Part shown: positions 20,937 to 29,753 of the stretch, piece after piece
How positions within the stretch are numbered: position 1 is the stretch's first letter
Layout of the letters: each line of letters opens with the position of its first letter
Source: Xenophilus sp. AP218F
GTDB taxonomy: Bacteria > Pseudomonadota > Gammaproteobacteria > Burkholderiales > Chromobacteriaceae
Length of the DNA stretch: 64,000 nt
Assembly: GCA_002213445.1 (NCBI GenBank)
Contig: NJIE01000003.1
Coordinates: 124,001 to 188,000, forward strand
Direction of reading: 5' to 3'
Position numbers and translations under genes: made by a program
Notes under the pieces: model-generated
What the model saw: only the letters and a program-made list of their open reading frames with translations
Database searches by the model: none
Told to the model about the DNA's origin: nothing

Positions 20937-22196
20937 ATGAACGTCAAAGAATACATGCAGCAAACCGGCAAGGCGGCGCGCAAGGCCAGCCGCCTGCTGG
21001 CCCGCGCCGACAGCCAACAGAAAAACCAGGCGCTGCTCGCCATCGCCGCCGCCATCGTCCGCGACAAGGCCAGGCTGCTCGCCGCCAACGCCAAGGACGT
21101 GGACGCCGCCAGACAGTCCGGCCTCGACGCCGCCATGATCGACCGCCTGACCCTGAGCGCCAAGGGCGTGGAAGCGATGGCCGACGGCCTGCACCAGATC
21201 GCCGCGCTGCCGGACCCGGTGGGCGAGATCAGCGATATGAGCTACCGCCCGTCCGGCATCCAGCTGGGCAAGATGCGGGTGCCGCTGGGCGTAGTGGGCA
21301 TCATCTACGAAGCGCGCCCCAACGTCACCGCCGACGCCGCCGGCCTGTGCCTGAAATCCGGCAACGCCACCATCCTGCGCGGCGGCTCGGAAGCCTTCCA
21401 CAGCAACCAGGCCATCGCCGCCTGCGTCCACGAGGGCCTGCGCGTCGCCGGCCTGCCGGCCGAAGCGGTGCAGGTGCTGGAAACCACCGACCGCGCCGCG
21501 GTGGGCGAACTGATCGCCATGCCGCAGTACGTGGATGTGATCGTGCCGCGCGGCGGCAAGGGCCTGATCGCCCGCATCAGCGGCGAAGCCAAAGTGCCGG
21601 TGATCAAGCACCTGGACGGCAACTGCCATGTCTACATCGACGACACCGCCAACCCGGACAAGGCGTTCAACATCGCCCTCAACGCCAAGACCCACCGCTA
21701 CGGCACCTGCAACACCATGGAAACGCTGCTGGTGCACGCCGCCTTCGCCGAATTCATCCTGCCGCGCCTGGCCGAGGCCTACTGGGAAAAAGGCGTGGAG
21801 CTGCGCGGCTGCGAGCGCACCCGCGTCATCCTCGGCGACAAGGTCTGGCCGGCCAGCGACGAGGACTGGGCCAGCGAATACCTGGCGCCGGTGCTGGCGA
21901 TCAAGGTGGTCAAGGATATCGACGAGGCCATCGAGCACATCAACCACTGGGGCAGCCACCATACCGACGCCATCGTCACCGAGGACCTGGGCCGCGCCCG
22001 CCGCTTCTTGCGCGAGGTGGACTCGTCCAGCGTGATGGTCAACGCCTCCACCCGCTTCGCCGACGGCTTCGAGTACGGCCTGGGCGCCGAGATCGGCATC
22101 TCCACCGACAAGATCCACGCTCGCGGCCCGGTGGGGCTGATCGGCCTCACCAGCCAGAAGTGGATCGTGCTGGGCGACGGACAGATCCGCGAATAA
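20937..22196 (+). CDS. proA: Gamma-glutamyl phosphate reductase
   Basis: A 419-residue NADPH-dependent enzyme that makes glutamate-5-semialdehyde, the second step of proline synthesis. Conserved text includes [20 protein letters not shown], the nucleotide-binding region GGSEAFHSN, the catalytic cysteine in [15 protein letters not shown] near residue 260, and the C-terminal [19 protein letters not shown]. The family length is exact. proB is not adjacent. The gene ends with a good terminator and is monocistronic. Confidence 0.97.
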
Positions 22197-22910: not shown

Positions 22911-23279
22911 ATGTTGTTTCCCCCCGCCGTTTCGCGTCGCCTGCCAGGCTTGCTGGCAGGCGCGCTGCTGCTCGTTTCCGCCGCCGCCCAGGCCAAGGAC
23001 GCGCCCCAAACCACGCTGAACGCCCGCCGGCCGCCTTCAGCCGTGGCCGATTGCCTGGAGCAAAGCATCCAGCGCCTGAAGATTCCGGACAGCTTCATCA
23101 GCAGCGCGCCGCTGCCCGACGGCGGCCAGAGCGTAGGCCTGGTCAATCCGGTTTCCGGCCAGAACGGGCTGGAGCTAAGAGTGCTGCCCGACGGCGCCGG
23201 CAGCCGCATCGACGTGTTCACCCACGGGCTGGAATACAGCAAGGCCTGGCGAAAGCGGGTGGCGGTCTGCGCCCGCTGA
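22911..23279 (+). CDS. Small secreted hypothetical protein
   Basis: This 122-residue protein has a clear Sec signal peptide (LPGLLAGALLLVSAAAQAK, cleavage near residue 29). The mature part of about 93 residues includes a pair of cysteines (VADCLEQSIQ and the near-terminal VAVCAR) that could form a disulfide. I recognise no family. An AGGG lies 8 nt before the ATG. Its stop codon directly adjoins the first of the DnaA-box-like sequences that fill the next 200 bp. Confidence 0.7.
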   Translation: MLFPPAVSRRLPGLLAGALLLVSAAAQAKDAPQTTLNARRPPSAVADCLEQSIQRLKIPDSFISSAPLPDGGQSVGLVNPVSGQNGLELRVLPDGAGSRIDVFTHGLEYSKAWRKRVAVCAR

Positions 23280-23479
23280 TGTGGACAACCCGACCCGAGA
23301 GCGGGTCGCCTGTGGATAGTGTGCGCAAACTGTAGATAAGCCTGTGCATAAGACCGGCGGCGCGCCGCCAAGCGCATGAAAGACAAGGCGAACGACCGCG
23401 CACGGCCTGTGGATGAAGGGTGATGCTCCGCTCGCGTCTGTGCGAACTGTGGGGGAAATGTGCATAACCCTGTGAATAG
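23280..23479 (+). promoter_or_regulatory. Cluster of seven DnaA-box-like 9-mers
   Basis: Against the consensus TGTGNATAA (the complement of TTATNCACA) there are two exact matches, TGTGCATAA at 23343 and 23459, and five single-mismatch sites: TGTGGACAA at 23280, TGTGGATAG at 23311, TGTAGATAA at 23331, TGTGGATGA at 23408 and TGTGAATAG at 23471. All point the same way. The sites at 23331/23343 and 23459/23471 form two tandem pairs, each with a 3-bp spacer (GCC and CCC). Such clusters occur at origins, at DnaA-titration loci and in DnaA-controlled promoters. No dnaA or dnaN lies nearby and no obvious AT-rich unwinding element is seen. Confidence 0.7.
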
Positions 23480-23557
23480 TTTGCTTGCGCCGGCCATCCC
23501 CCTGTCTGGCATAAACCGTTACACTCAAACCGGTCCTATCGCATAGCAGGTATCCGC

Positions 23558-24964
23558 ATGTCCATGCCCGACGCACGCCATACCTTGTTCCAGCAACAAT
23601 ACGCCGCCGGCAAAGCCTTGCGCCAAGAGCACTCGCGCGCCGATCACGCCCGCTGCGCGCTCAGCGCCCATCGCGACATCGTCGCCATGGTGGAAGCCAC
23701 CTCCCACGGCCGGGTGCCGGCCCTGGTGCCGCTGCGTTACGGCCGCATGAGCGCGTCGCCGTTCGCCTTCTTCCGCGGCCTGGCCATGATCCAGGCCGCG
23801 GACCTCGCCGCCGCGCCGCATAGCGGCATCGCGCTGCAGATCTGCGGCGACGCGCATCTGATGAATTACGGCTTCTTCGCCTCGCCTGAGCGGCAGCTGA
23901 TCTTCGACATCAACGACTTCGACGAAACCCACCCCGGCCCCTGGGAATGGGACCTGAAGCGGCTGGCGGTCAGTCTGGTCCTGGCCGCCCGCGCCCGCGG
24001 CTTTTCCGACGCCGACGCCCGCGACATGGTGCTGCGCGCCGCCGGCACCTATCAGCGCCGCATCCACGATTACGCCCGCATGGGCCAGCTGGAAGTCTGG
24101 TACAGCAAGCTTGGCTTCGAGCAGTTGCTGTCGCACGCGCCCAGCGAAGACATCCGCCAGCAGATGCTGAAACTGGCGGCCAAGGCGCGCAACCAGACCC
24201 AGGAAAAACTGCTGCCCAAGATGACGGAGCGCGAGGATGGCAGCCTGCGGCTGCGCGACAATCCGCCGGTGATCTTCCACCTGGGCCAGGCCGAGGACAT
24301 GCTGGCCGGCGACGACAGCGGCCTGGCCTGCGAGGACATCCAGCAGCTGATCCAGCCCATGCTGCACCAGTACGGCGGCACGCTGAAGGAAGACCGCCGC
24401 GAGCTGCTAGGGCGCTTCCGGCCGGTGGACGCGGCCTTCAAGGTGGTGGGGGTGGGCAGCGTCGGCACCCGCTGCCTGGTGGTTCTGCTGCAGGACAACT
24501 ACGACCAGCCGCTGTTCCTGCAATTGAAAGAAGCGCGCTCTTCGGTGCTGGAGCCTTACACCCAGCGCTGCGCCCACGGCCATCAGGGCAAGCGGGTGGT
24601 GTTCGGCCAGCGGGTGATGCAAGCCGCCAGCGATCTGTTCCTGGGCTGGACCAGCGGGCCGGGCGGCCGCCACTTCTACGTGCGCCAGCTGCGCGACATG
24701 AAGGCCGCGCCGACGCTGGAGGCCTTCGCCGCCCCCGGCGCGCTGGGCGCTTACGGCCAGGCTTGCGCCTGGGCTCTGGCGCGCGCCCAGGCCAAGGCCG
24801 GCGGCTGCGCGGCGCGCATCGCCGGCTATCTTGGCCAATCCGACCGCTTCCAGCTGGCGCTGGGCGAATACGCGCTGCGCTACGCCGATCAGGTGGAAGC
24901 CGACTACGCCAGCTTCAAGGCCGCCATACGCGGCGGCCGCCTGAACGCCGCGACGCCGGACTGA
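23558..24964 (+). CDS. DUF2252 family protein
   Basis: The 468-residue protein matches DUF2252: an N-terminal RYGRMSASPFAFFRGLA block, ICGDAHLMNYGFF near residue 100, and DINDFDETHPGPWEWDLKRL near residue 125, with a C-terminal VRQLRDMK block. The GDAH-N and D-NDFD motifs resemble the catalytic and metal-binding loops of aminoglycoside-phosphotransferase-type kinases, so a small-molecule kinase fold is likely, but no substrate is known. It follows the DnaA-box cluster, which could influence its promoter. Confidence 0.88.
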   Translation: MSMPDARHTLFQQQYAAGKALRQEHSRADHARCALSAHRDIVAMVEATSHGRVPALVPLRYGRMSASPFAFFRGLAMIQAADLAAAPHSGIALQICGDAHLMNYGFFASPERQLIFDINDFDETHPGPWEWDLKRLAVSLVLAARARGFSDADARDMVLRAAGTYQRRIHDYARMGQLEVWYSKLGFEQLLSHAPSEDIRQQMLKLAAKARNQTQEKLLPKMTEREDGSLRLRDNPPVIFHLGQAEDMLAGDDSGLACEDIQQLIQPMLHQYGGTLKEDRRELLGRFRPVDAAFKVVGVGSVGTRCLVVLLQDNYDQPLFLQLKEARSSVLEPYTQRCAHGHQGKRVVFGQRVMQAASDLFLGWTSGPGGRHFYVRQLRDMKAAPTLEAFAAPGALGAYGQACAWALARAQAKAGGCAARIAGYLGQSDRFQLALGEYALRYADQVEADYASFKAAIRGGRLNAATPD

Positions 24965-28896: not shown

Positions 28897-29643
28897 CTAG
28901 CGTCTGACGGCGAAGACGAAGAACTCGTGATTGCCGTCGCCGCCCTTGATCGGGCTGTCGAACCAGCGCAGCGTCCGCATGCCCTGCTCGTCCAGCACCC
29001 GGTTGATCTTGTCCCGCACGCCGGGATAGAGGCTGGCGTCGCGGACGATGCCGCCCTTGGACAGACCCTCGCGCCCCACTTCGAACTGCGGCTTGACCAG
29101 GCTGAGCAGATGGCCGCCCGGCTGCAGCAGCGGCAGCGCCGACGGCAGCACCAGGCTCAGCGAAATGAACGACACGTCGCAGACCATCAGGTCGAACGGC
29201 TCGCCGTCGTTGGCGGCCTGCAGTTGGGCGCGGTCCAGCGCGCGGGCGTTGACGCCCTCGAAATAGCGCACCCGCGCGTCCTCACGCAGCCGCGCATGCA
29301 GCTGGTCGTGACCGACATCCACCCCCACCACCCGGCGCGCGCCGGCTTGCAGCAGGCAGTCGGTAAAACCGCCGGTGGACTGGCCGACGTCCAGCGCCGC
29401 CAGGCCTTTGGCCGACAAGCCGGCCTCGTCGAGCGCGCCCTGCATTTTCAGGCCGCCGCGCGAGACGTAGCGGTCGGCGGGGTCGGCGGTCACGCTGAAT
29501 TCGGCGCTGGCCGGAAACTTCTGGCTGGGCTTGACCACCGCCACGCCGGCATGGCTGACGCGGCCGGCGGCGATCAGGTTTTGCGCCGCGGTGCGCGAGG
29601 CCGCCAGGCCCTGCTCCACCAGTAAAACATCAATGCGAATCAT
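28897..29643 (-). CDS. tlyA: TlyA-family rRNA methyltransferase / hemolysin A homologue
   Basis: The 248-residue protein has an N-terminal S4 RNA-binding domain (IRIDVLLVEQGLAASRTAAQ) and a C-terminal FtsJ-like methyltransferase. The SAM-binding loop is AALDVGQSTGGFTDCLLQAG near residue 85, followed by DLMVCDVSFISL and SLVKPQFEVGREG. TlyA proteins 2'-O-methylate rRNA in mycobacteria; the betaproteobacterial relatives are assigned by homology. The ATG at 29643 matches the conserved MIRIDVLL start, and the 21-codon upstream extension is rejected. Confidence 0.9.
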   Translation of the reverse strand: MIRIDVLLVEQGLAASRTAAQNLIAAGRVSHAGVAVVKPSQKFPASAEFSVTADPADRYVSRGGLKMQGALDEAGLSAKGLAALDVGQSTGGFTDCLLQAGARRVVGVDVGHDQLHARLREDARVRYFEGVNARALDRAQLQAANDGEPFDLMVCDVSFISLSLVLPSALPLLQPGGHLLSLVKPQFEVGREGLSKGGIVRDASLYPGVRDKINRVLDEQGMRTLRWFDSPIKGGDGNHEFFVFAVRR

Positions 29644-29753
29644 CAGGCCTCCCACGGCCGGATCTGGAATCCGCGACAGGGTGGCGAAGCGGACCGCCGC
29701 TGTCAAGTCGGCCGCAGACCGCCGCCGTCCGGCGCGCGCATTCGCAACAAGTG

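Follow-up and report, generated by a model that had tools for sequence, protein, structure and literature searches.

A conserved, origin-proximal array of two five-box DnaA-box units in Xenophilus sp. AP218F and its relatives

Why should so many DnaA-box-like sites be gathered in one intergenic gap away from dnaA, and what could they do there? This question is raised by a short, GC-rich stretch in the genome of Xenophilus sp. AP218F. It was addressed here within a window of 64,000 nucleotides, the whole stretch of DNA that was analysed, and in related genomes. The original prediction offered three readings: a datA-like titration locus, an origin unlinked to dnaA, or a DnaA-regulated promoter of the DUF2252 gene. 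The array is real, conserved, non-coding and of a new design, and it is of the same general kind as E. coli datA and the DnaA-box clusters of B. subtilis.

Seven boxes with at most one mismatch to the DnaA-box consensus lie at 23280-23479, as had been predicted. Two of them are exact (E1 and D2), five carry one mismatch, and all seven are on one strand (Table 1). Both tandem pairs of the form 9-3-9 (23331-23351 and 23459-23479) are likewise real and correspond to the definition of a double DnaA box, namely, same-strand boxes 2-3 bp apart. Three weaker boxes that were missing from the first list (C1, B2 and C2) complete a 2 x 5 design. The ten boxes thus form a direct repeat of the five-box unit A-31-B-9-C-11-D-12-E (bp, start to start), with identical spacing in both copies. 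The second unit is weak, with B2 and C2 being degenerate. The array sits in a gap of 278 bp between the 122-aa ORF and the DUF2252 gene. No Rfam match was obtained at the gathering threshold between 22000 and 25000, and no promoter or terminator was found by a scan of 23100-23700.

Table 1. Predicted boxes of the array and neighbouring genes (positions in the window; mismatches against the DnaA-box consensus).
Feature	Position	Strand	Remarks
proA (gamma-glutamyl phosphate reductase)	20937..22196	+	Aldedh domain; name by eye; upstream marker in relatives examined
122-aa ORF	22911..23279	+	start resembles a signal peptide (by eye); without Pfam match; ends just before box A1
Whole array, two direct five-box units	23280..23479	.	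A1-A2 pitch 128 bp; E1-A2 65 bp
DnaA box A1	23280..23288	-	TTGTCCACA, 1 mismatch
DnaA box B1	23311..23319	-	CTATCCACA, 1 mismatch; A1-B1 31 bp
Weak DnaA box C1	23320..23328	-	2 mismatches; abuts B1; assigned by position in unit
DnaA box D1	23331..23339	-	TTATCTACA, 1 mismatch
DnaA box E1	23343..23351	-	TTATGCACA, exact; 3-bp gap to D1 (double DnaA box)
DnaA box A2	23408..23416	-	TCATCCACA, 1 mismatch
Degenerate DnaA box B2	23439..23447	-	assigned by position
Degenerate DnaA box C2	23448..23456	-	assigned by position
DnaA box D2	23459..23467	-	TTATGCACA, exact
DnaA box E2	23471..23479	-	CTATTCACA, 1 mismatch; 3-bp gap to D2
DUF2252 gene	23558..24964	+	downstream neighbour in window; undetected in three array-bearing genomes
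S4/FtsJ methyltransferase, tlyA-like (name by eye)	28897..29706	-	far-side marker of locus

Far fewer than one such site had been expected by chance in this length, and this estimate held. The source genome contains 708 boxes of at most one mismatch in 3,978,285 bases, i.e. about 0.04 (0.036) per 200 bp. At this genome-wide rate, the probability of seven or more boxes in 200 bp is approx. 1e-14. Dinucleotide shuffles of the 278-bp gap contained 0.19 boxes on average and 3 at maximum, and none of the 2000 reached seven. The whole 64-kb window holds 11 boxes, which is an ordinary number (shuffle mean 10.1), and therefore only their clustering is unusual. A scan with the five-box unit gave no further unit scoring 30 or more in the window, and none scoring 31 or more in 971 kb of the genome G018. 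When three TGTGNAY boxes on one strand were required, each 9-mer being followed by a gap of 0-30 bp, the genome gave two matches: the array and a site upstream of a priA-like ORF (by eye). The triple-box sequence of 32 bp upstream of the priA-like ORF (L145:1200-1231; G000:C24:98199-98230) is near-identical in 17 of the 19 genomes of the genus, with the neighbours examined in the source genome (G000) only.

The homologous clusters of relatives repeat the geometry. Two units were found in all of the 21 clusters aligned first, with spacings of 29-31, 9, 10-11 and 11-12; the script permitted 29-32, 9-10, 10-12 and 11-12, a set learned from the same loci before its trial on others. The near-fixed two-unit spacing was found again in 13 out of 13 later loci, ten of them from further genomes and three probably repeats of the 21 clusters. 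Column identity in the 21 related sequences was 83% for the boxes vs 52% for the spacers (Mann-Whitney p 3e-19). Slot strength was counted in 31 clusters, the 21 together with ten further genomes. At least seven of eight consensus bases were present in 25, 13, 9, 6 and 29 clusters for slots A to E of unit 1 and in 23, 19, 27, 8 and 28 for those of unit 2, with slot E being the strongest and slot D the weakest. The distance between E1 and A2 falls into classes of 22-24, 41-42, 54-55 and 65-67 bp, which are near 2, 4, 5 and 6 helical turns; with an approximate p of 0.08 and five length classes, helical phasing of the unit spacing is only suggestive.

The boxes common to all 21 clusters are arranged head to tail. 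A reverse-oriented ATCCACA was present in the A2-B2 gap of 12 out of 21 aligned clusters, that of the window not being among them, and the single orientation is therefore not universal. This motif bears on a DARS-like role, in which the array would promote the release of ADP from DnaA-ADP and raise DnaA-ATP. DARS1 and DARS2 are also DnaA-box clusters outside oriC, and their boxes I and II are opposed (PMC8682772, in excerpt). The reverse motif would provide such opposed boxes, so that a DARS-like role is conceivable for those 12 clusters. However, the motif is missing in the window and in eight others of the 21 clusters, and with all shared boxes running head to tail, this role is very improbable for the array.

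Conservation among relatives, which had been proposed as a check, was found in the close relatives and not throughout the family. By DNA comparison, the region is present in 18 of the 19 genomes of the genus (own included), and each of the 18 loci (3-4 kb) has between five and eight boxes of at most one mismatch when both strands are counted, all of them close to the array. A sequence-only model of the unit was built from 42 units, with the genomes of the groups g7 and g8 outside the model. It detected adjacent unit pairs in 32 out of 61 family genomes, namely, 18 of 19 in the genus (g1), 10 of 10 in g2, three of six in g7 and the single genome of g8. The best E-values outside the training set were 5.2e-11 (G043), 1.8e-10 (G044), 1.1e-9 (G040) and 3.1e-8 (G038). 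In this family search, which used stricter filters, the double unit was absent from 29 of the 61 genomes, including G013 of the source genus; 12 of these gave weak partial matches only and 17 none at E<=0.01. Thus, the array is dispensable over evolution.

Downstream of proA, a remnant of two or three boxes was observed in G039, G041 and G042 of g7 as well as in G048, G051, G052 and G053 of g10, and the g10 remnants suggest that the array arose or decayed within the family. Box sites of the g10 remnants are L309:2571, L310, L278 and L279. The other proA loci examined, including that of G013, contained at most two scattered boxes and those of G030 and G029 none; the G050 locus ends 128 bp after proA, and G046 gave no proA match at the threshold. 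Among named relatives, the cluster was found at seven of 80 DUF2252 loci kept from 585 (four Chromobacterium, three Aquitalea) and was absent at the named DUF2252 loci of Crenobacter, Jeongeupia, a Laribacter MAG and the rest of the 80. An order-wide search with the unit model, with 12 candidates per genome scored under strict filters, gave matches at E<=1e-4 in at least 11 out of 399 genomes. Among those scored, seven belonged to the own family (G051 with a weak partial match only) and four lay outside. Of the latter, the G355 and G152 matches are origin-like regions as judged by eye from ORF translations; the other two are in G267 and G394. In G355, from another family of the order, the origin-like region is flanked by dnaA-like and dnaN-like ORFs (by eye), and its eight perfect boxes form two rows of four with a spacing of 11 bp (L300:7314-7421).

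While the position of the array after proA is constant, the next gene varies and can be DUF2252, a hydrolase-like ORF, glutamine synthetase or the tlyA-like gene. No DUF2252 gene was detected in G038, G040 and G044, and all three keep the array. It is located next to glutamine synthetase in G044 and between convergent proA and tlyA-like genes in G038 and G040 (ORFs of at least 100 aa), so that in the latter two the promoter of a flanking gene would not be expected at the array. Since G040 consists of 240 contigs and G044 is 80% complete, the absence of DUF2252 is firmest in the single-contig genome G038. In the Aquitalea genome L036, a hydrolase-like ORF (by eye) is placed between the array and DUF2252, and a similarly long distance was seen in six of nine g2 loci examined. 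A DnaA-regulated DUF2252 promoter as the main role, as put forward by the original prediction, is thus not supported by the comparison of relatives and was rejected.

An effect of array-bound DnaA on the right-hand gene, here DUF2252, by repression or activation would be consistent with the order of genes in the window and the genus loci, where DUF2252 follows the array. The heptamer TTACACT (16 of 18) or TTAAACT (2 of 18) is present between the array and the start codon in the genus loci, and DnaA is a known transcription factor (PMC11317965, in excerpt). However, the three array-bearing genomes with no detected DUF2252 gene, the convergent flanks in two of them, the additional ORF in L036 and the long distances in g2 argue against this effect, which is considered very unlikely. 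In the window, TTACACT (23519-23525) precedes the start codon of DUF2252 by about 30 bp and is perhaps the -10 region of this gene. Since many relatives keep the array although its neighbours change, its probable role is that of a control element which takes up or organises DnaA, and not that of an ordinary gene switch.

The array was correctly described as lying away from dnaA, which is found on the same contig at a distance of about 121 kb. In G018, dnaA is positioned at 0.3 kb and the array at -115.6 kb. The GC skew of this genome reverses its sign from the 220-240 kb bin to the 240-260 kb bin, which coincides with a group of exact boxes near 236.5 kb, and shows no switch at the array. The array is about 352 kb (7.4%) away from this origin region. 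The homologous origin region of the source genome, near 127 kb of G000:C22, contains six exact boxes, and the skew along this one contig changes sign between the stretches of 100-120 kb and 120-140 kb. In ten genomes (nine single-contig and G008 with two contigs), the distance between array and origin region was 5.4-9.9% of the chromosome, with positions rounded by hand and origins outside G018 placed by homology and box counts, in G000 with the skew along one contig. E. coli datA is 10.1% away from oriC by the same calculation. An origin unlinked to dnaA, the second reading offered, therefore seems to exist in the source genome, but it is located elsewhere than the array. The GC skew and the separate origin-like region rule out the array as the main chromosomal origin; it is ori-proximal and not the chromosomal origin itself. 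The likely origin (L141:3094-3484; near 236.5 kb in G018) neighbours a heptosyltransferase-like gene (name by eye) and contains exact boxes 89 bp apart; in G018, its distance from dnaA is 236 kb. Similar box groups occur at the origin region in genomes of g2, g4, g7, g8 and g10.

The array could still act as an accessory or second origin or as a helicase-loading site. Tandem boxes at 11-bp spacing are present in the origin-like region of G355 as mentioned above. Against this reading, the array is free of a skew switch in G018, no conserved AT-rich stretch was seen by eye in the cluster alignment, and a separate region of six exact boxes lies at the skew switch; an accessory origin is considered extremely unlikely. 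Among known systems, the left DnaA-oligomerisation region of E. coli oriC resembles the array in its same-strand boxes, on which a head-to-tail DnaA pentamer is formed (PMC10380432, in excerpt); it differs from the array, which shows neither the skew switch nor the AT-rich stretch, and the unit scan gave no match in E. coli oriC at the threshold used. DnaA at the array might also organise the origin domain or its segregation and leave initiation unaffected; the conserved place near the origin is consistent with such a structural role, which is scarcely probable.

Out of the three readings offered, the datA-like titration locus is best supported. The array is ori-proximal, non-coding and conserved in position, and its same-strand boxes include 3-bp doublets; the resemblance ends at the IHF site, which is lacking, and at the chromosomal place, which is different. 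E. coli datA is also a non-coding, intergenic, ori-proximal cluster of strong and weak DnaA boxes that lies near but outside oriC, and its position is conserved within the species (PMC4585315, in excerpt). However, datA needs an IHF site between its boxes 2 and 3, is flanked by glyVXY/queG and not by proA/tlyA-like genes, and contains no five-box unit at the scan threshold. The IHF consensus (WATCAANNNNTTR) was matched with one mismatch in four of the 21 clusters with flanks, each time overlapping a DnaA box. Six matches were found in five of the 13 later loci (three of the 13 probably being repeats, as above), and five of these matches overlap a DnaA box; the sole exact one, in G040, falls on box E2, and that in G028 lies just past E2. 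As positive control, the scan recovered the E. coli datA site exactly. An IHF-dependent datA was rejected, as no IHF site is conserved.

A mechanism of the datA type, in which array-bound DnaA-ATP would be hydrolysed to DnaA-ADP, would have to proceed via a non-IHF bending protein or a sub-consensus IHF site. The ori-proximal, intergenic placement of the array, comparable to the distance of datA from oriC, and its boxes of mixed strength speak for it, as datA combines consensus and weak boxes as well (PMC5835720, in excerpt). Given the missing conserved IHF site and the failure to find the five-box unit in datA, hydrolysis at the array is rather doubtful. Since no IHF site is conserved and the window has no opposed pair of boxes, titration is a better candidate than hydrolysis or reactivation.

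Pairs of boxes also recur outside the array. In the source genome, 35 exact boxes lie outside the origin region and the array; 11 of them are accompanied by a same-strand partner of at most one mismatch at a distance of exactly 29 or 30 bp, and just two others have any such partner within 150 bp (one box in two overlapping stretches was counted once). Of 14 same-strand pairs within 120 bp in 971 kb of G018, nine have a spacing of 29-30 bp, and all of these fall in the range from -11 kb to 804 kb; this sample is denser near the origin, and an enrichment of the doublets there is thus not proven. No long shared motif was seen by eye in the gap sequence. Examples with 29-30 bp from start to start are L143:1253, L144:1327 and L178:6649. 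The A-B step of the array has nearly the same spacing. The recurring doublet suggests a DnaA-binding geometry that is invisible to single-box scans.

DnaA is directed into head-to-tail oligomers by boxes on the same strand, and in E. coli oriC one DnaA pentamer is found on the left part and another on the right (PMC10380432, in excerpt); the two five-box units can therefore be read as two DnaA assembly sites. The D-E pair of both units fits the preference of E. coli DnaA for double boxes 2-3 bp apart (PMC11317965, in excerpt). With a lone box, a gap of 20-22 bp and four close boxes ending in a strong one, the predicted unit would allow DnaA to assemble head to tail with up to five monomers, and the tandem units might carry up to ten. 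Being close to the origin, at 5-10% of the chromosome, the array would be copied soon after initiation and its capacity would double. The doubled array could then withdraw DnaA from the newly made origins and hinder immediate re-initiation. The withdrawn form would probably be DnaA-ATP because several boxes are weak. DnaA is presumed to bind here, cooperatively and in its ATP form, and to be titrated rather than chemically converted at its nucleotide.

Taken as a whole, the array is best read as an ori-proximal DnaA sink or scaffold that is datA-like in its role and not a datA homologue. With a probability of roughly 0.58, it is a stand-alone non-coding DnaA-binding element of the family that acts as an ori-proximal sink and withdraws DnaA after initiation. 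Experiments support the titration of DnaA on the chromosome of E. coli (PMC12371093, in excerpt). In B. subtilis, deletion of DnaA-box clusters outside oriC leads to early initiation (Okumura et al. 2012, via the review PMC13220808, in excerpt). There as here, several DnaA boxes lie outside and close to the origin, and B. subtilis is, according to the excerpted text, also devoid of SeqA and datA; it differs by its six clusters, compared to one tandem array and scattered doublets. SeqA was found in none of the 61 family genomes and, among 14 control genomes, in E. coli only. It is tentatively proposed that re-initiation would be braked purely by titration and without SeqA, through two tandem head-to-tail DnaA pentamers without IHF at a family-specific locus, together with genome-wide 29-30-bp doublets, many of which lie around the origin.

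No description of the array was found in a literature search that was thin on subscription papers and in which 'datA' also matched 'data'; the excerpted texts of PMC3135505 and PMC4948915 do not describe it. Judged from the sequence, a role in replication timing is the most likely reading. Whether initiator titration alone times chromosome replication is an old question, and in E. coli the combined action of SeqA, datA and the DARS loci makes it difficult to test. With a compact and removable array of fixed design, natural losses in G013 and in other genera and no SeqA found in the family, a direct test of titration would be possible in these bacteria.
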